Positions 25,451 to 43,362 of a stretch of DNA of 64,000 nt are shown here, piece after piece. The notes beneath the pieces were generated by a model that was not told where the DNA came from, did not search any database, and saw only the letters and a list, made by a program, of their open reading frames with translations. The DNA is from Faecalibacterium sp. I4-1-79 (GTDB lineage Bacteria > Bacillota > Clostridia > Oscillospirales > Ruminococcaceae), in the NCBI RefSeq assembly GCF_023347235.1, contig NZ_CP094467.1:1674001-1738000 (forward strand), written 5' to 3'. The translations under genes were made by a program, and so were the position numbers. Every line of letters starts with the position of its first letter. The stretch's first letter is position 1.

Positions 25451-27865
25451 ATGGAAACAAGCTACTTAAAAACATTAGAACTGGATAAGATCATTGCCCG
25501 TGCAGCAGAGGGCTGCGTATGCAAGGAAGCCCGTGCCATGCTGCTGGCTATTGAGCCGCAGTGCGACCCGGATGAGGTGCGCTATGCACTGGAGCAGACA
25601 GATGCCATCAACACCCTGCTGATCAAAAACGGCTCGCCGCGCTTTGGCGGAGTGGAAGGGGTCAGTCAGCTTGCCGCCCGTGCCGTAAAGGGCGGTGTGC
25701 TTTCCATGGGCGAGCTGCTGATGGTGGCCGGTGCGCTGCGCAATTTTCAGCATTTGACCAGCTGGTACGGCTCCTCCGAGCACGACGCGCTGCCGACCGA
25801 TGACCTGTTTTACGCACTTGCACCGGAACCGGGTCTTGAGCAGCAGATCTCAAGTGCCATTCTGGCACCGGACGCCATGGCGGATACCGCCTCCCGCACG
25901 CTGGCAGAACTGCGCAAGAAGATCCGTGCCACCGAAAACAGCATCCGCGACCGGCTGGAAAGCATGGTGCGCAATATGGATACCTCTAAATACTTGCAGG
26001 AAAGCGTGGTTTCCATGCGCAACGGCCGGTATGTTGTGCCGGTCAAGAGCGAGTATCGTGGCGAAGTGAGCGGTATCATCCACGATGTATCCTCTACGGG
26101 TGCTACGGTGTTTGTAGAGCCGCAGGCTGTGGTGGAGGCGAATGCCCGCATCCTGCAATACCGTGCACAGGAGGCGCAGGAGATCGAGCGCATTCTGGTG
26201 GCCTTTACCGCACAGGTGGCCGCTATTGAGCCGCAGTTTCAGTACAGCTACAAGGCAATGCTGGAAATCGATATTCTGCTGGCAAAAGCGCGGCTTGCGC
26301 TGGAGCTGAAGGCCTTCAAGCCCGCTGTGCGCACAGATTCTTCTTTTAATCTGATCCGCGCCCGCCACCCACTGATCGATCCGCAAAAGTGCGTTCCTGT
26401 GGATATTGCACTGGGCGGAGAATACGATTCTCTTATCATCACTGGCCCGAACACCGGCGGTAAAACAGTTACCCTGAAAACCGCCGGTCTGCTGTGTGCC
26501 ATGGCGCAGTGCGGCTTTCTGATCCCGGCTGACGAGCGCAGCGAGATCTGCGTATTTGATGAATTTTTGGTGGATATCGGCGACGAACAGAGCATTGAGC
26601 AGAGCCTTTCCACCTTCTCCGGACACATGAAAAAAATCACTGGTATTCTGGAACTGGCCATGCCGCACACCCTTGTGCTGCTGGACGAGCTGGGTGCCGG
26701 TACCGATCCCGCCGAGGGCGCCGCGCTGGCAGTTGCCATCATTGAGGAGCTGCGACGCCGTGGCGTTCTGCTGATGGCGACCACCCACTATGCAGAGCTG
26801 AAGGTCTTTGCATTGGAAACAAAGGGCGTGGTCAATGCCAGCTGCGAGTTTGATTTGGAGACCCTGCGCCCAACCTATAAGCTGAGTGTGGGCGTACCGG
26901 GCAAGTCCAACGCTTTCCTGATCAGCGAAAAGCTTGGCATCCCCAGCCGCGTCATTGAGGCTGCCCAGCAGCATCTGTCTGCCGAGGATAAACGTCTGGA
27001 TGCAGTTCTGGGTCAGCTGGATGATCTGAAACTTCAACTGAAAGAAAGCCAGAACGAGGTGGAGCAGCTACGCAACGAAGCTTCCCATCAGCTGGAAGCC
27101 GCCCGCAAAAAGCGGGACGAGCTGATCCAGCAGGGCGAGAATGAATTGGAAGCTGCTCGTGCCAAGGCGCGCACGCTGGCACAGCAGGTGGAAACACAGG
27201 CCTATGCGCTGACCGACGAGCTGCGCCAGCTGCAAAAAGATGAGCGCATGAGCGCCCAGCAGAAAGCGCAGCGTGCCCGCGAGATTGCCAAAAAGGAGAC
27301 CGAAAAGCTGTTTGCCGGTACGGAAGTGGTGCATAACCCCGTTAAGGAGTTTGTGCCACTGAAGGAGGTAAAGGTAGGGCAGGAGGTCTGCATTGCAGAG
27401 CTGAACCAGCTGGCCACCGTTCTGGCGCTGCCTGATAAAAACGGCGATGTGCTGGTGCGCGCCGGTATCATTAAGACCAAGGTACCCCTCAAGGGCTTGA
27501 AGCAGCCGGAAAAGCTGGTAAAAGAACCCACTGCACCAAAAACCAAGGCGCAGCAGCGGTATTCCCGCCTGACAGGCGATACCAACCGTCCCAACGGCAG
27601 GGTAGAGCGCGTACAGCGTACTGCCAAAATGGAGTGCAACCTGCTGGGACTTACGGTGGACGAGGCACTGTCGGAGGTGGATTCCTTTATCGACCGCGCC
27701 ATCCTGAACGGACAGACGGTGGTCTATCTGATTCACGGCAACGGCACTGGCGCGCTGCGCACCGCCATCCATAAGCATCTGCGCGGCAACCGCATGGTAA
27801 AAAGCTTCCGTCTTGGTCGTTACGGCGAAGGTGAGAGCGGCGTGACGGTTGTAGAACTGAAATAA
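25451..27865 (+). CDS. mutS2: Endonuclease MutS2
   Basis: This 804-residue protein has the MutS core and ATPase (GPNTGGKTVTLKT Walker A; LVLLDELGAGTDP signature and Walker B), a long coiled coil (~residues 515-620) and a C-terminal Smr nuclease domain (LLGLTVDEALSEVDSFID and HGNGTGALR). It suppresses homologous recombination or rescues collided ribosomes in Firmicutes. It is full length and ends the operon before a terminator. Confidence 0.96.
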   Translation: METSYLKTLELDKIIARAAEGCVCKEARAMLLAIEPQCDPDEVRYALEQTDAINTLLIKNGSPRFGGVEGVSQLAARAVKGGVLSMGELLMVAGALRNFQHLTSWYGSSEHDALPTDDLFYALAPEPGLEQQISSAILAPDAMADTASRTLAELRKKIRATENSIRDRLESMVRNMDTSKYLQESVVSMRNGRYVVPVKSEYRGEVSGIIHDVSSTGATVFVEPQAVVEANARILQYRAQEAQEIERILVAFTAQVAAIEPQFQYSYKAMLEIDILLAKARLALELKAFKPAVRTDSSFNLIRARHPLIDPQKCVPVDIALGGEYDSLIITGPNTGGKTVTLKTAGLLCAMAQCGFLIPADERSEICVFDEFLVDIGDEQSIEQSLSTFSGHMKKITGILELAMPHTLVLLDELGAGTDPAEGAALAVAIIEELRRRGVLLMATTHYAELKVFALETKGVVNASCEFDLETLRPTYKLSVGVPGKSNAFLISEKLGIPSRVIEAAQQHLSAEDKRLDAVLGQLDDLKLQLKESQNEVEQLRNEASHQLEAARKKRDELIQQGENELEAARAKARTLAQQVETQAYALTDELRQLQKDERMSAQQKAQRAREIAKKETEKLFAGTEVVHNPVKEFVPLKEVKVGQEVCIAELNQLATVLALPDKNGDVLVRAGIIKTKVPLKGLKQPEKLVKEPTAPKTKAQQRYSRLTGDTNRPNGRVERVQRTAKMECNLLGLTVDEALSEVDSFIDRAILNGQTVVYLIHGNGTGALRTAIHKHLRGNRMVKSFRLGRYGEGESGVTVVELK

Positions 27866-27975: not shown

Positions 27976-28839
27976 ATGCCAACCAGTCATCGCAGACCCG
28001 CAAATAAGTATAGTAAACGCAAAACACACCGCCGCAAAGCCCAGCGTCGGATTTTGCATGGACTACTGCTTGTTTTTGCGGCATTGATGCTCTGTTTTGG
28101 CCTGTTTTTATGGAAGGCGGCGCTGGAACTGAATGCACCCGCAGAACCCGCAGTCTCGGCCGCAGAGGATGATTTTCGTCCTGTGGTGGGCGACCCGCCG
28201 TACCGGGTGGCAATAGACGCTGGACATGGCGGCAACGACCCAGGCGCAAGGGGAGTGGTCGAGGAAAAACAGGTCACAGCAGCAACGGCTGCTGCGCTGC
28301 TTCAGTGGTTAGAAGAGGATTCTAATTACATTCCGTTGCAGACCCGGGAAAGCTTTGATGAAACCGCGACGCCTGCCCAACGTGCAGCCACCGCCAGTGC
28401 CCAAAGCCCACAGCTGCTGCTGTCCATCCACGGCAACTCCGCAGCCAATGGCTCTACGGCATCCGGCTTTGAATGCTATCCGGCAGTGCCCGGGCGCACA
28501 TGGCATCAGGAGAGCTTTTATTTTGCCCGGCTGCTGGCAGGTGGAATGCAGAGCATCGGCGCAAAGCTGCGCGGACGTGGGGGAGTGCGGTACATTTATT
28601 ATCTGGAAAACGACCAGAAGCAGCTGGTGGAGAACACCTACACACAGGTGCGGCCTGAGCGCAGCTTTACGCTGCTGGAAGATGTGGATTGTCCGGCAGT
28701 GTTGGCAGAGCAGTGCTTTGTAACGAATGCCGAGGATGTAGAGCGCTTCGGCAGTGAGGAAGGTTGCAAAGCTGTGGCACGTATTTATTACGAAGCCATC
28801 TGTGCATATTTCGGCACAGAACCGCTGCCGATGAAATGA
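27976..28839 (+). CDS. Membrane-anchored N-acetylmuramoyl-L-alanine amidase
   Basis: The 287-residue protein has a basic N-terminus and one membrane segment (ILHGLLLVFAALMLCFGLFL in part), then an Amidase_3 domain outside the cell. Zinc-site motifs are IDAGHGGNDPGA (His), LLSIHGNSAA (His) and the catalytic Glu likely in VLAEQCFVTNAEDV. It cleaves peptide stems from glycan strands in cell separation, or in spore-cortex remodelling if CwlD-like (size and single domain fit). It is monocistronic. Confidence 0.92.
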   Translation: MPTSHRRPANKYSKRKTHRRKAQRRILHGLLLVFAALMLCFGLFLWKAALELNAPAEPAVSAAEDDFRPVVGDPPYRVAIDAGHGGNDPGARGVVEEKQVTAATAAALLQWLEEDSNYIPLQTRESFDETATPAQRAATASAQSPQLLLSIHGNSAANGSTASGFECYPAVPGRTWHQESFYFARLLAGGMQSIGAKLRGRGGVRYIYYLENDQKQLVENTYTQVRPERSFTLLEDVDCPAVLAEQCFVTNAEDVERFGSEEGCKAVARIYYEAICAYFGTEPLPMK

Positions 28840-29018
28840 GCATCGTTTCACCAAAGCAGAAGAAACAATATTACTTTTATAACATGACCTGTAATGCACC
28901 AGAACAGCCACCGCAGGTATAAGTCAAACACTTGAACACACTGGTAACGCGTTCAATGGTGCAGAAGCGGGCACATACAAAAAAACAACATCCACAGAAG
29001 CTGCTGGAAATCTGACAG

Positions 29019-29046
29019 AAAGAGAGAAGGGCAGCTTCTCTCTTTT
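29019..29046 (+). terminator. Hairpin terminator left of the dif-like site
   Basis: AAAGAGAGAAG (29019-29029) pairs with CTTCTCTCTTT (29035-29045) over a 5-nt loop. The left arm contains GAGAAGGG (29024-29031), identical to the Bacillus SpoIIIE recognition octamer, oriented toward dif. Confidence 0.75.
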
Positions 29047-29056
29047 GATTACAGAT

Positions 29057-29084
29057 ATTTCGTATAATGCACGTTATGCGAAAC
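29057..29084. other. dif: Candidate chromosome-dimer resolution site (dif)
   Basis: Two 11-bp half-sites, ATTTCGTATAA (29057-29067) and TTATGCGAAAC (29074-29084), flank a 6-bp centre TGCACG. They fit the bacterial dif format TNCGNATAA-N6-TTATGNNAAA, and TTTCGTATAA/TTATGCGAAA are inverted with one mismatch. By eye the half-sites match E. coli dif at 7 and 8 of 11 positions. A Xer-type recombinase gene lies 440 bp away and gene orientation flips here, both expected at the terminus. Confidence 0.8.
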
Positions 29085-29087
29085 TTA

Positions 29088-29119
29088 GGGAAGTGAAAAA
29101 AGCCAACTTCCCGGATTTT
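29088..29119 (+). terminator. Hairpin right of the dif-like site
   Basis: GGGAAGT (29088-29094) pairs with ACTTCCC (29106-29112), followed by GGATTTTT. Weak terminator, or a spacer hairpin protecting dif from transcription. Confidence 0.5.
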
Positions 29120-29442
29120 TGGCGTTCCAGCCCCAGCTGGCTCATTATTAGGCTTGGTTCAACCGTTCTGCGCATTCTGCACTTTTTTATCATGTTTTAG
29201 TCTCACGCTTACAGATTGTTCCTGTGTTATGCGCTGCTGCATCGGTTCGTTTGTAATTCTTTTATTCCAGTAAGCATCTATGCGCCGCTTTATAACATTT
29301 CATGCTGCGTTTTATGATTTACAGTTTGCGGCTGTGGTTGCTCATTTGTTTTTATGTAGACATTACTTTGCGCGTTTCTATCAGATCGTTTCTATGGATG
29401 CTCCTGTATGTATGGCTGCTGACTGCTTATAATGCAAATTAT

Positions 29443-29491
29443 AAGGACCCATGACGTTATCCGGTCAAGCCGTATCGCGCCATAGGTCCTT
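29443..29491 (-). terminator. Imperfect hairpin at the 3' side of the Xer gene
   Basis: AAGGACC (29443-29449) pairs with GGTCCTT (29485-29491), with further ATG/CAT pairing inside. It lies 30 nt past the recombinase stop on the minus strand; the T-run is poor. Confidence 0.45.
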
Positions 29492-29521
29492 GAATCGTCT
29501 TATTAGATGTTTTGTGCGGGT

Positions 29522-30730
29522 TTAAGTATCGCTTGATAAATCGTCGTTTTTCTCATCAGATATTGCCGAAATATCTGCCCGAAAGCCATTCTGTGCAGCG
29601 CCCTTAAAGGCAGCCATCGGGCCGGACAGTTCAGAAGCATCCTCTCCCGCCGGGGCATTTTCGGTAGATGTCTCCCCTGCCGCTTCTGTTGTATCCAAGC
29701 TTGCTTTTGCGGCTTTTATGGGCAGTACCTTGCCCAGCGGATTTTCTTCAATGGCAGAGCGAACCTGAAATTCTTGTAGATGCGTATAAATTTGCGTTGT
29801 TCCGACGCTGCTGTGACCCAGAAGCTGCTTGAGGGTAAGGATATCCACATTGCCGGTTTGATACATCAACGTAGCGGCAGTATGGCGCAGCTTATGGGTG
29901 GAAAAGCCCTTCAGTCCGGCGGCCTTCATTGCGCCGGAGATCAGCTGTTCTACCCTGCGGTTCGAGATACGCTCCTTGCGCATCCGCGTAATGAACACGG
30001 CTTTTTCCTTGGGTGAAAGCCCTTCCATAGTATTGCGCTTGCGCAGATACAACTGCAACGCCTCCACACAGGCATCGTTCAGGTAGACCATGCGTTCCTT
30101 ATGGCCTTTGCCGAACAGGCGGATCTGCCGCTGCTCCAAATCAATGTCTCCAAGGTCCATGCCTACCAGCTCTGCAAGGCGCATACCGCAGTTGAGGAAC
30201 AGCACCACCATGCAATAATCCCGCTCCGGGAAATCGCTCTGGGTCTGGGTGCTCTCCAAAAGCGAGATGGACTGCTCTGCCGTCAGGTACTTGGGCAATA
30301 CTTTATCCTGCTTGGGCGGACGGATGGCCGCCGTAGGGTCCTCGGATAGGTGGTTGACCTGATTGACCAGATAATCATAAAAGCCGTGCAGGCTGGCCAG
30401 CCGCCGGGCGGTAGAGGATTTTTTGTTGCCGCACTCCCGGTTCAAAAAGTACAGATACTCGTAGATATCCTCTTTTGTTATGCTGCCCCAAAAGGCCGTA
30501 TCCAGCCCTTTGGGGTCGATCTCCTTAAACTCTGCATCTGCGGCCACAAGCCCGCGGCGGCGCTTCATAAAGCGGCTGAAGGAGCGCAGGTCGCAGTAAT
30601 AACTGAACGCCGTATTGGCACTTTTGCCGGCGATCACTTCAAGATAACGTACATATTCCACAATATCCGGGGCAGCATCCTCAAAGGGCGCGTGCTTGCC
30701 GGGATTTCTTTCGTCCAGATAAATCGACAT
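29522..30730 (-). CDS. xerC: Xer-type tyrosine recombinase with long C-terminal tail
   Basis: The 402-residue protein has a SAM-like core-binding domain (IVEYVRYLEVIAGKSANTAF) and catalytic domain with Arg in NCGMRLAEL, Lys in FGKGHKERM, HKLRHTAATLMY, LLGHSSVGTTQ and the Tyr in IYTHLQEF. It lacks any integrative-element neighbours and resembles housekeeping XerC/XerD, so resolving chromosome dimers at the dif-like site is its likely role. About 70 extra Ala/Glu/Ser-rich residues follow the Tyr domain, beyond the usual ~300-residue length. GAGGAA precedes the ATG. Confidence 0.9.
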   Translation of the reverse strand: MSIYLDERNPGKHAPFEDAAPDIVEYVRYLEVIAGKSANTAFSYYCDLRSFSRFMKRRRGLVAADAEFKEIDPKGLDTAFWGSITKEDIYEYLYFLNRECGNKKSSTARRLASLHGFYDYLVNQVNHLSEDPTAAIRPPKQDKVLPKYLTAEQSISLLESTQTQSDFPERDYCMVVLFLNCGMRLAELVGMDLGDIDLEQRQIRLFGKGHKERMVYLNDACVEALQLYLRKRNTMEGLSPKEKAVFITRMRKERISNRRVEQLISGAMKAAGLKGFSTHKLRHTAATLMYQTGNVDILTLKQLLGHSSVGTTQIYTHLQEFQVRSAIEENPLGKVLPIKAAKASLDTTEAAGETSTENAPAGEDASELSGPMAAFKGAAQNGFRADISAISDEKNDDLSSDT

Positions 30731-30745: not shown

Positions 30746-32149
30746 TCACAGGCGGTCATTTTTCAGCGCGTTGATGGCATCTGCGATATACGCTGCACCG
30801 ACCAGCTTCATACCGGGATAATCTGCGGCATTCAGGTGCGCAAGGCTGTGCTTGGGAATGACCGCCCGCTCAAAACCGATACGCTCTGCCTCGTGCAGAC
30901 GCTGTTCCAAATTGGGCACGCTGCGCACTTCCCCGCCCAGACCTACTTCGCCAATGGCAATAAGCTTATCGCTGACCGGGCGGTCCAGCAGCGAGGAGAC
31001 CATACTCAGGCAAACGGCAAGGTCGCAGGCGGTATCCCGCAGTGCAATGCCGCCCACAATATTGACGTAAACATCCAGATTGCCAAAGAAGTACCCTGCC
31101 CGCTTTTCCAGCACGGCGATCAAAAGATTCATGCGGTTATAGTCGTATCCGCTGCAAGCGCGGCGGGGTGCCGGGAAATTTGTCTTGGTGGCAAGCGCCT
31201 GAATCTCGCTCAGAATGGGACGGCTGCCCTCCATGGTGCAGGCCACACAGTTGCCGGAAACCCCCAGCGGACGTCCTTCCAGCAGCATTTGGGAGGGGTT
31301 TTCGATCTCGGCAAGTCCTGTGCCGGTCATATCGAACATTCCCAGCTCATTGGTAGAGCCATAACGGTTTTTGGCTGCCCGCAGAATACGGTATGGCAGC
31401 ATCTTGTCGCCCTCAAAGTAAAGCACCGTATCCACGATATGCTCCATGACCTTGGGGCCTGCAATTGCACCGTCCTTATTCACATGACCCACAATGAACA
31501 TGGGAATTTCCTGCTTTTTGGCGACTGCCAGCAGCCGCGCGGCACTTTCCTTCACCTGACTGACTGTGCCGGACGAGGACGAGATATCCATGCAGCGCAT
31601 GGTCTGGATAGAGTCGATGACTACAAGATCCGGCTTTTCCTTTTCGATCAGACCGCAGATCTCATCCACGTCATTTTCCGCCGCCAGAAAAATGTTATCC
31701 TGCGGTACCTTCAGCCGCGCTGCACGCAGCTTGACCTGCCGGACAGACTCCTCGCCGGTGATATACAATACGCTGTGCTGGTTGGAGATGGCGCCGCACA
31801 GCTGTAACAGCATAGTGGATTTACCCACGCCCGGCTCACCGCTCAAAAGCACCACGCCGCCCAGCACGATGCCGCCGCCCAATACGCGGTCCAGCTCCGA
31901 GATACCAGTCAGGATGCGGCTTTTTTCCTCCGTGGTGCTGATCTCTGACAGCCGCCGGGCGGTCAGGGTGGTCACGCCCTCCTGACGAGCCGCAGCAGCC
32001 TGCCGGGCAGCAGGAGTCCCCGCCTTGGGTGCCTCGGCTACAACGTCCTCGTTCATGGTATTCCAGCTGCCGCAGCTGGGGCAGCGCCCCATCCAGCGGG
32101 GGCTTGTCTCTCCGCAATTGGAGCATACATAGACGGATTTCAATTTCAT
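30746..32149 (-). CDS. radA: DNA repair protein RadA
   Basis: RadA (467 residues) processes recombination branches as a RecA-like helicase. Seen: N-terminal zinc finger CSNCGETSPRWMGRCPSCG, Walker A GEPGVGKSTMLL, the RadA-specific KNRYGSTNELG motif and a C-terminal Lon-protease-like domain. It lies 15 nt upstream of the Xer gene on the same strand, so repair and dimer resolution genes share a transcript. Confidence 0.96.
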   Translation of the reverse strand: MKLKSVYVCSNCGETSPRWMGRCPSCGSWNTMNEDVVAEAPKAGTPAARQAAAARQEGVTTLTARRLSEISTTEEKSRILTGISELDRVLGGGIVLGGVVLLSGEPGVGKSTMLLQLCGAISNQHSVLYITGEESVRQVKLRAARLKVPQDNIFLAAENDVDEICGLIEKEKPDLVVIDSIQTMRCMDISSSSGTVSQVKESAARLLAVAKKQEIPMFIVGHVNKDGAIAGPKVMEHIVDTVLYFEGDKMLPYRILRAAKNRYGSTNELGMFDMTGTGLAEIENPSQMLLEGRPLGVSGNCVACTMEGSRPILSEIQALATKTNFPAPRRACSGYDYNRMNLLIAVLEKRAGYFFGNLDVYVNIVGGIALRDTACDLAVCLSMVSSLLDRPVSDKLIAIGEVGLGGEVRSVPNLEQRLHEAERIGFERAVIPKHSLAHLNAADYPGMKLVGAAYIADAINALKNDRL

Positions 32150-43073: not shown

Positions 43074-43362
43074 ACAAAAAACGCCCTCTGCCAAAATTGA
43101 ATTTGGCAGAGGGCGAGATAACTTCGCGGTACCACCTCTGTTTGCCGTTTCCTCACGGAAGCGGCCTTACGAGTGCACACCCCAGAGTAGAGTGACACTC
43201 CTGCGTCTTTAACGCTCGCACGCGGCACAGCCTACTAGCCTTACGCATTCAGCCTGCAGCTCCGGGAGGTATTTCCCCTGCTGTTCTGTGATCCCTTGCA
43301 CCAACCGGGACTTCTCTGGACAGAACGCTTCAGGGTACTTGTTCCCTTCATCGCCATTAACA
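43074..43362 (-). promoter_or_regulatory. Tyrosyl T-box riboswitch
   Basis: The minus-strand leader has the T-box core AGGTGGTACCGCG (43137-43125) and a terminator of 14-bp stem CGCCCTCTGCCAAA (43082-43095 with 43102-43115) followed by a T-run (43080-43075). Uncharged tRNA-Tyr would favour the antiterminator and permit tyrS expression. A candidate specifier codon UAC lies at 43271-43269 in the Stem I region (GGGGAAATACCTCCC). The codon assignment is tentative; the T-box itself is clear. Confidence 0.93.

Follow-up and report, generated by a model that had tools for sequence, protein, structure and literature searches.

Organization of the locus

The window, meaning the whole 64,000-nucleotide stretch of the Faecalibacterium sp. 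I4-1-79 chromosome analyzed here, contains a non-coding gap of 682 bp (28840–29521) between an amidase ORF and an Xer ORF. To the left of the gap, on the plus strand, are mutS2 (25451–27865) and the gene for an N-acetylmuramoyl-L-alanine amidase of the Amidase_3 type (27976–28839), which is CwlD-like but scores below the CwlD cut-off. To the right, on the minus strand, is xer (29522–30730), which encodes a tyrosine recombinase of 402 aa; radA (sms; 30746–32149, minus strand) lies directly upstream of xer and is co-directional with it. Residues R184, K208, H279, R282, H306, and Y315 of Xer are invariant in 28 homologues and, after the tyrosine-recombinase family, are presumably its catalytic residues.

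A 28-bp candidate dif site is found within the gap on the plus strand (29057–29084), approximately 440 nt from xer. The initial annotation had described a gene-free gap of 680 bp with the recombinase gene at 440 bp, and both distances agree with those measured. Between the amidase gene and the site is a terminator-like hairpin read from the sequence (AAAGAGAGAAG-GGCAG-CTTCTCTCTTT, then T; 29019–29046, plus strand). On the other side, 2 nt outside the right arm, is AGGGAAG (29087–29093, plus strand), the window's copy of AGGGRAG, a candidate FtsK-reading (KOPS-like) motif. A second hairpin, also read from the sequence (GGGAAGT ... ACTTCCC followed by a T run; 29088–29120, plus strand), overlaps this motif in the window's species. 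Elsewhere in the window, a further tyrosine recombinase/integrase gene near the left end (864–1940, domain at 1383–1883) suggests an inserted element in the terminus region, and a T-box leader (43106–43360, minus strand, 112.5 bits) is the only match to Rfam at gathering scores.

A single palindromic site

The site reads ATTTCGTATAA-TGCACG-TTATGCGAAAC. Two inverted 11-nt arms (29057–29067 and 29074–29084) enclose a 6-nt centre (29068–29073) in non-coding DNA, which is the 28-bp format of bacterial dif sites. The arms are symmetric at 9 of 11 positions and differ at the other two, and the palindrome covers 20 of the 28 nt, compared to 16 of 28 in E. coli dif. A degenerate dif pattern applied to both strands of the window matched at 29057–29084 and nowhere else, and 0 of 100 shuffled sequences gave a match. 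In the whole genome, a single contig of 3,227,950 bp, the pattern with up to three mismatches again had one match, so that no better dif of this pattern exists elsewhere; a reversed-pattern control had none. The earlier proposal of a 28-bp dif-like site with 11-bp half-sites and a 6-bp centre is borne out by the sequence, the palindrome, and the uniqueness of the match.

Position at the replication terminus

The dnaA gene is located at 40–1311 of the contig, and dif, at 1,703,057, is 52.8% of the way round from it. Cumulative GC skew was calculated from 40 stretches of 20 kb together with the window (approximately 27% of the genome), with 4-kb steps near the site. In this sample the skew has its maximum at approximately 1,702,001, beside the site and not in another part of the chromosome. 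Inside the window, cumulative skew peaks at 28,777, 280 nt from dif. A single-copy site at the skew maximum, opposite the origin, is what is found for bacterial dif sites, and the suggestion that the window spans the replication terminus is upheld by the skew maximum at dif and the position of dnaA (skew from the 27% sample).

Gene orientation was examined with a crude ORF caller, which picked a wrong-strand frame over xer/radA. Left of dif, 19 ORFs are on the plus strand and 6 on the minus strand; right of dif, the counts are 7 and 23. The orientation switch that had been reported at the site is thus present, although the statement that nearly all genes to its left are on the plus strand was somewhat too strong.

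The association with the skew flip extends to relatives. In all seven single-contig genus genomes (G149, G150, G162, G165, G174, G175, and G176), skew is plus to the left and minus to the right of xer/dif. The flip is also found at xer/dif in five of seven more distant family genomes (G132, G051, G140, G013, and G114); in G020 skew is zero and then negative, i.e., half a flip, and in G117 neither a dif site nor a skew flip was detected. Among ten genomes of the class, the flip at xer is clear in five (G205, G438, G327, G348, and G382) and not clear in G390, G196, G334, G273, and G298, although in G390, G196, and G334 xer is at 0.49–0.51 of the contig. Because the flip is clear in only five of these ten, it is not claimed that the gene is always at the skew flip across the class.

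One recombinase or two

According to profile models, the window Xer scores 211.9 bits as XerC (cut-off 335.15), 203 bits as XerD (cut-off 329.6), and 139.6 bits as XerS (cut-off 267), and is therefore below both NCBIfam equivalog cut-offs for XerC and XerD as well as that for XerS. The best E-values among the 28 homologues against XerC and XerD (1.9e-69 and 1.3e-64) imply scores below the cut-offs too. The 6-bp centre likewise differs from the 11-bp centre of the 31-bp difSL site of XerS. The initial annotation had compared the layout to XerS/XerH systems; this is supported as a way of working, with xer beside dif, but the protein is not XerS by model and the format of the site is unlike difSL.

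Other Xer genes had also been suggested as a check. A whole-genome search with the XerD model returned no protein above the cut-off of 329.6, and at E ≤1e-30 it returned two proteins only: the window Xer (199 bits) and a second Xer-like protein of 303 aa (164 bits), encoded at 2,162,080, which scores 164–170 bits to the XerD/XerC models. The genome has 24 tyrosine-recombinase domain matches, some of which may be fragments of the same gene. Eleven of the tyrosine-recombinase proteins were compared to the XerC model; in a scan of ten other recombinase proteins, all except the 303-aa protein scored ≤97 bits to any Xer model. The second-best homologue of the window Xer in the genome scores 43.9 bits. 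Around the 303-aa gene, helicase-like, AAA-ATPase-like, and GAPDH-like frames were read by eye. The check thus came out free of any protein above the XerD cut-off, but not free of a second Xer-like gene.

The presence of this second gene would be in keeping with a two-recombinase system, in which the Xer encoded beside dif would work as a pair with the 303-aa protein or another integrase, in the manner of XerC and XerD, and so would the imperfect symmetry of the window arms, which differ at 2 of 11 positions. Such a system is nevertheless quite improbable: a match resembling the 303-aa protein (25–26% identity, same stretch) is found in just 3 of 31 genus genomes, arms are perfectly symmetric in many relatives, and the XerD cut-off is passed by 3 of 148 family genomes. 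In the same family search, in which the genus was represented by G000 and G081 only, 8 of 148 genomes have a XerD-like protein of at least 288 bits, in some cases directly beside xer. The 303-aa protein looks accessory, though it may have a part as partner of the window Xer. Linkage of dif to the xer gene is a feature of single-recombinase systems, and judged from sequence, a one-recombinase Xer system is most likely.

Additional Xer-like proteins occur among the relatives. Six other genus genomes encode one of 331–354 aa that is approximately 30% identical to the window's Xer, and two tandem Xer gene copies, 39 and 40% identical to the window's, are found in one relative (G062:C56:6837-9617). 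Where a XerD-like gene is directly beside xer (G033:C19, G098:C37, G116:C8, G394:C11, G352:C61, and G305:C11; loci L361 and L363–L367), the site keeps its palindrome, with one mismatch at most. No site was found in the stretch taken from G084, which has a XerD-like neighbor, or from G060 and G105, in which the XerD-like gene is elsewhere.

Conservation of dif and its linkage to xer

Some match to the Xer protein is present in 30 of 31 genus genomes, and 28 loci have an orthologue (one partial). A dif site was found at 27 of the 28 xer loci, the remaining one being interrupted by a contig end; 22 loci show the site in the first flanks taken, and wider stretches added five of the other six. In the core clade (23 loci), dif is 0.4–3.9 kb 3' of xer, while in four divergent loci of the genus (L088–L091) it is 5' of xer. 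Across the 23 core-genus sites, the mean frequency of the major base is 0.90 and 0.97 in the arms and 0.91 in the centre, as opposed to 0.72 and 0.53 in the 60-nt flanks. The 28 bp are thus kept better than their surroundings, as had been asked of close relatives and as is found for bacterial dif sites.

In the family, a Xer orthologue (E ≤2.2e-50) is present in 122 of 148 genomes. The degenerate site pattern with up to two mismatches matches 96 of 148 genomes and its reversed control 33 of 148; therefore, single pattern matches are not proof of dif. Positions were compared in 57 of the 96 matching genomes, those among the matches listed. Here, 48 genomes have the site within 5 kb of xer, and in 9 it is elsewhere or on another contig. 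The xer-linked sites listed are 5' of xer in 47 of 48 cases (45 at a distance of 16–252 nt), and the one 3' site is that of the window's genome. The usual family site, ATTTCGCTAAA-TNNNNA-TTTAGCGAAAT, is a near-perfect palindrome; one example that was scored has 24 of its 28 nt in the palindrome. In the window's clade, xer is reversed with respect to the module formed by dif and its flanking motif, as would result from inversion or relocation of the gene with the site left in place. Xer and dif remain linked although their relative orientation has changed.

The position of the palindrome 16–252 nt upstream of xer, in 45 of the 57 family genomes listed, is promoter-like, and in a few loci (e.g., L059 and L257) an AGGGGAG-like motif is also at Shine-Dalgarno distance from the start codon. 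Both features could be expected of an operator through which Xer or another regulator controls xer, rather than a recombination site. That the palindrome is such an operator is very improbable, since in the window's clade the site is 0.4–3.9 kb 3' of xer with its arms and centre still kept in 23 sites, it coincides with the GC-skew maximum, and its 11-6-11 spacing is the dif format. The evidence from format, uniqueness, position, and conservation points instead to 29057–29084 being, very probably, the dif of this chromosome, with a single Xer recombinase encoded beside it.

Distribution across Clostridia

In 293 genomes of the class, best matches to this Xer clade are bimodal (approximately E ≤1e-67 vs. 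1e-35 to 1e-51), and the strong matches are spread over many families. The canonical XerD cut-off is passed in 91 of the same 293 genomes, and these include genomes with a strong Xer-clade match too; the Xer clade and XerD can therefore coexist, and mutual exclusion of the two across the class is ruled out by, e.g., G390, G348, and G438.

An 11-6-11 palindrome, defined by AAA/TTT inner ends and at most one mismatch, is present within 620 nt upstream of xer in 32 of 80 named Clostridia loci; this rule finds nothing in the other 48. Applied to control intervals, it gave 1/73, 1/72, 0/80, 0/80, and 2/76. Without the AAA/TTT rule, a palindrome is found upstream in 36 of 80 loci and downstream in 8 of 80. 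The loci with an upstream palindrome include Gemmiger, Thermoanaerobacter, Clostridium, Anaerococcus, Oscillibacter, and Acutalibacter. The outer arms are clade-specific (ATTTCGCTAAA, ATTATACAAAA, ATTGAACAAAA, ATTGCACAAAA, and others). A canonical Firmicutes dif near xer was also considered in ten class genomes and rejected, with a best match of 16 of 22 positions to the template.

A polar motif at a fixed distance from dif

AGGGGAG has a leading-strand bias of 81:8, with 40:4 in the left replication arm and 4:41 in the right, and inverts at dif (864 kb). It ranks first by z-score among heptamers with at least 60 copies on both strands together. The less common form, AGGGAAG, has a bias of 40:10. 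In the window, all six plus-strand copies of AGGGGAG are to the left of dif (the last at 28,249) and all three minus-strand copies are to the right (the first at 29,672). A strong leading-strand bias that inverts at dif is the behavior of KOPS/SRS-type guide motifs. Of 5,205 heptamer pairs in the dif-flanking DNA of six other family genomes, AGGGGAG is at the top (37:2). Its rank in the pooled flanks of the genus is only 137 of 5,476 (33:3), perhaps due to repeated counting of orthologous genes, and in five class genomes it is too rare for ranking.

The motif was chosen from the genome heptamer count before the flanks of dif were compared. Exactly 2 nt beyond one of the arms, a match to AGGGGAG at 6 or 7 of 7 positions is present in 22 of 22 core-genus sites (another of the 23 had too short a flank and was left out), 26 of 30 family sites, and 14 of 32 other Clostridia sites; none of the 29 other offsets has more than one such match. 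The family set takes the best match per locus at 33 loci, 3 of which were without a match having enough flank. In 40 sites the A-rich half of the centre faces the motif, in 6 it is on the opposite side, and 23 are tied. One FtsK above its family cut-off is encoded in the genome, with alpha, motor, and gamma domains. From these patterns, AGGGRAG appears somewhat more probably than otherwise to be an FtsK-reading motif built into dif, where it would break the symmetry of the palindrome. Two features speak against this: the dif-proximal copy is directed away from dif, opposite to the polarity of its replication arm, and the window's copy has the less common form.

An alternative, which is possible but rather unlikely, accepts dif and the single Xer and takes AGGGGAG to be a Chi-like hotspot, or its offset-2 copy to be a remnant of the xer leader or Shine-Dalgarno sequence. 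Chi sites are often G-rich and leading-strand biased too, and the motif is similar to a Shine-Dalgarno sequence and precedes xer in many relatives. Against this, the Shine-Dalgarno-like AGGAGG itself has a bias of just 326:232, and leading-strand copies of AGGGGAG are about equal in ORFs of both strands (29 and 35, from crude ORF calls). Moreover, 22 of 22 core-genus sites have the motif at offset 2 even though it lies there 3' of xer and on the other strand. Given the AGGAGG bias, the balance between ORF strands, and the fixed offset, a Shine-Dalgarno origin seems unlikely, and for a Chi site a fixed position beside dif would lack an evident purpose. Either version is compatible with the core of dif plus a single Xer.

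Dif-like sites on viral contigs

Sites with arms identical to those of the window dif and another centre, ATTTCGTATAA-TAGGTA-TTATGCGAAAC, are found on three viral contigs (L106:1690-1717, L121:1216-1243, and L110:821-848). These lack AGGGRAG, and a stretch to one side of the site is conserved. Sequence around the site is the same in L106 and L121 and divergent in L110; phage genes include those for a head protein and endolysin on L106 and a small terminase on L121. The TAGGTA centre is the reverse reading of the dif centre in a relative (G167, locus L088). Judging by these arms and genes, the three are possibly phage that exploit Xer. A perfect ATTTCGCTAAA-TCTTGA-TTTAGCGAAAT palindrome is found in either direction, with similar flanks, on low-GC viral contigs (L103 and L118; L116 and L122). 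Of 43 dif-like sites on viral contigs, one has the motif, on a contig that carries a xer gene.

Comparison to other Xer systems

Single-recombinase systems named in the literature are XerS, XerH, XerA, and XerL (available portions of PMC3025954, PMC5357621, PMC9765430, PMC2958812, PMC2731167, and PMC5993296). XerS/difSL of streptococci and lactococci is, from the portions of PMC5357621 and PMC2731167 used here, alike in having one Xer, its gene beside the site, and a terminus location, and XerS is reported to need FtsK; difSL differs in its length of 31 bp, its 11-bp centre, and an additional nucleotide in one of its arms, as opposed to 28 bp and 11-6-11 here (PMC5357621, in part). XerH/difH of Helicobacter and Campylobacter shares the single recombinase with a linked site, and a one-sided polar motif is not mentioned for it in the available portion of PMC5357621. 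The window Xer resembles the solved XerH only weakly (47.9 bits, vs. 102.9 bits to the solved XerD, 1a0p). XerL/dif of Legionellales is similar in its single recombinase and the uninterrupted dyad symmetry of the arms, but in L. pneumophila more than 400 kb separate dif from xerL (available portion of PMC9765430). XerA/dif of Sulfolobales differs in belonging to archaea without FtsK, and the available portion of PMC2958812 does not connect its flank with a polar guide motif.

XerCD/dif of E. coli and B. subtilis is alike in the 28-bp 11-6-11 site, the terminus location, the FtsK gamma domain, and the strand-polar guide motifs. It differs in that the window system probably has one recombinase instead of two, and the arms here are more symmetric than in E. 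coli (20 of 28 nt, and 24 in the family example, vs. 16). In one sequence record of E. coli dif, no G-rich motif abuts the site.

A 2011 survey with a Bacillus-seeded profile predicted dif in 97 of 100 Firmicutes genomes (available portion of PMC3025954), and a 2012 paper on KOPS in Lactococcus is named in the available portion of PMC5357621. A search of the open-licence literature for dif together with Faecalibacterium returned no paper. No description of dif in gut Clostridia was found in the available portions of the papers, and the Firmicutes predictions of PMC3025954 may include some.

Proposed mechanism and implications

In other systems, FtsK is guided to dif by polar motifs and activates Xer through its gamma domain (available portion of PMC5357621). 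A comparable scheme can be proposed for this family, with AGGGRAG as its guide motif. When a dimeric chromosome is trapped at the septum, FtsK would pump DNA along the AGGGGAG polarity toward dif, and the two dif sites would be brought together. The single Xer recombinase would bind both arms of both sites, and two strand exchanges across the 6-bp centre would resolve the dimer. Because the arms are symmetric or nearly so and there would be one protein only, the asymmetric centre and the one-sided AGGGRAG copy would determine which strands are exchanged first. The dif-locked copy could either dock FtsK-gamma beside the Xer monomer on that arm or halt FtsK arriving from that side. Since this copy faces away from dif, halting or docking would fit better than loading toward dif.

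Taken as a whole, the proposal is of a widespread single-Xer system of Clostridia that uses a composite dif of approximately 44 bp, consisting of a perfect or near-perfect 11-6-11 palindrome and a one-sided FtsK-reading motif 2 nt from an arm. The motif and the co-oriented centre would supply the asymmetry given elsewhere by XerC/XerD, and the site would act on one arm as a dock or stop for FtsK. The chances for and against this complete model are evenly balanced.

XerC/XerD owe their direction and strand order to there being two proteins, and for single-Xer systems it has yet to be settled how one recombinase on symmetric arms obtains them. A directly testable answer would be a polar motif built into dif at a constant spacing. 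For gut Clostridia, dif would also provide a marker of the terminus and a candidate site of chromosomal integration.
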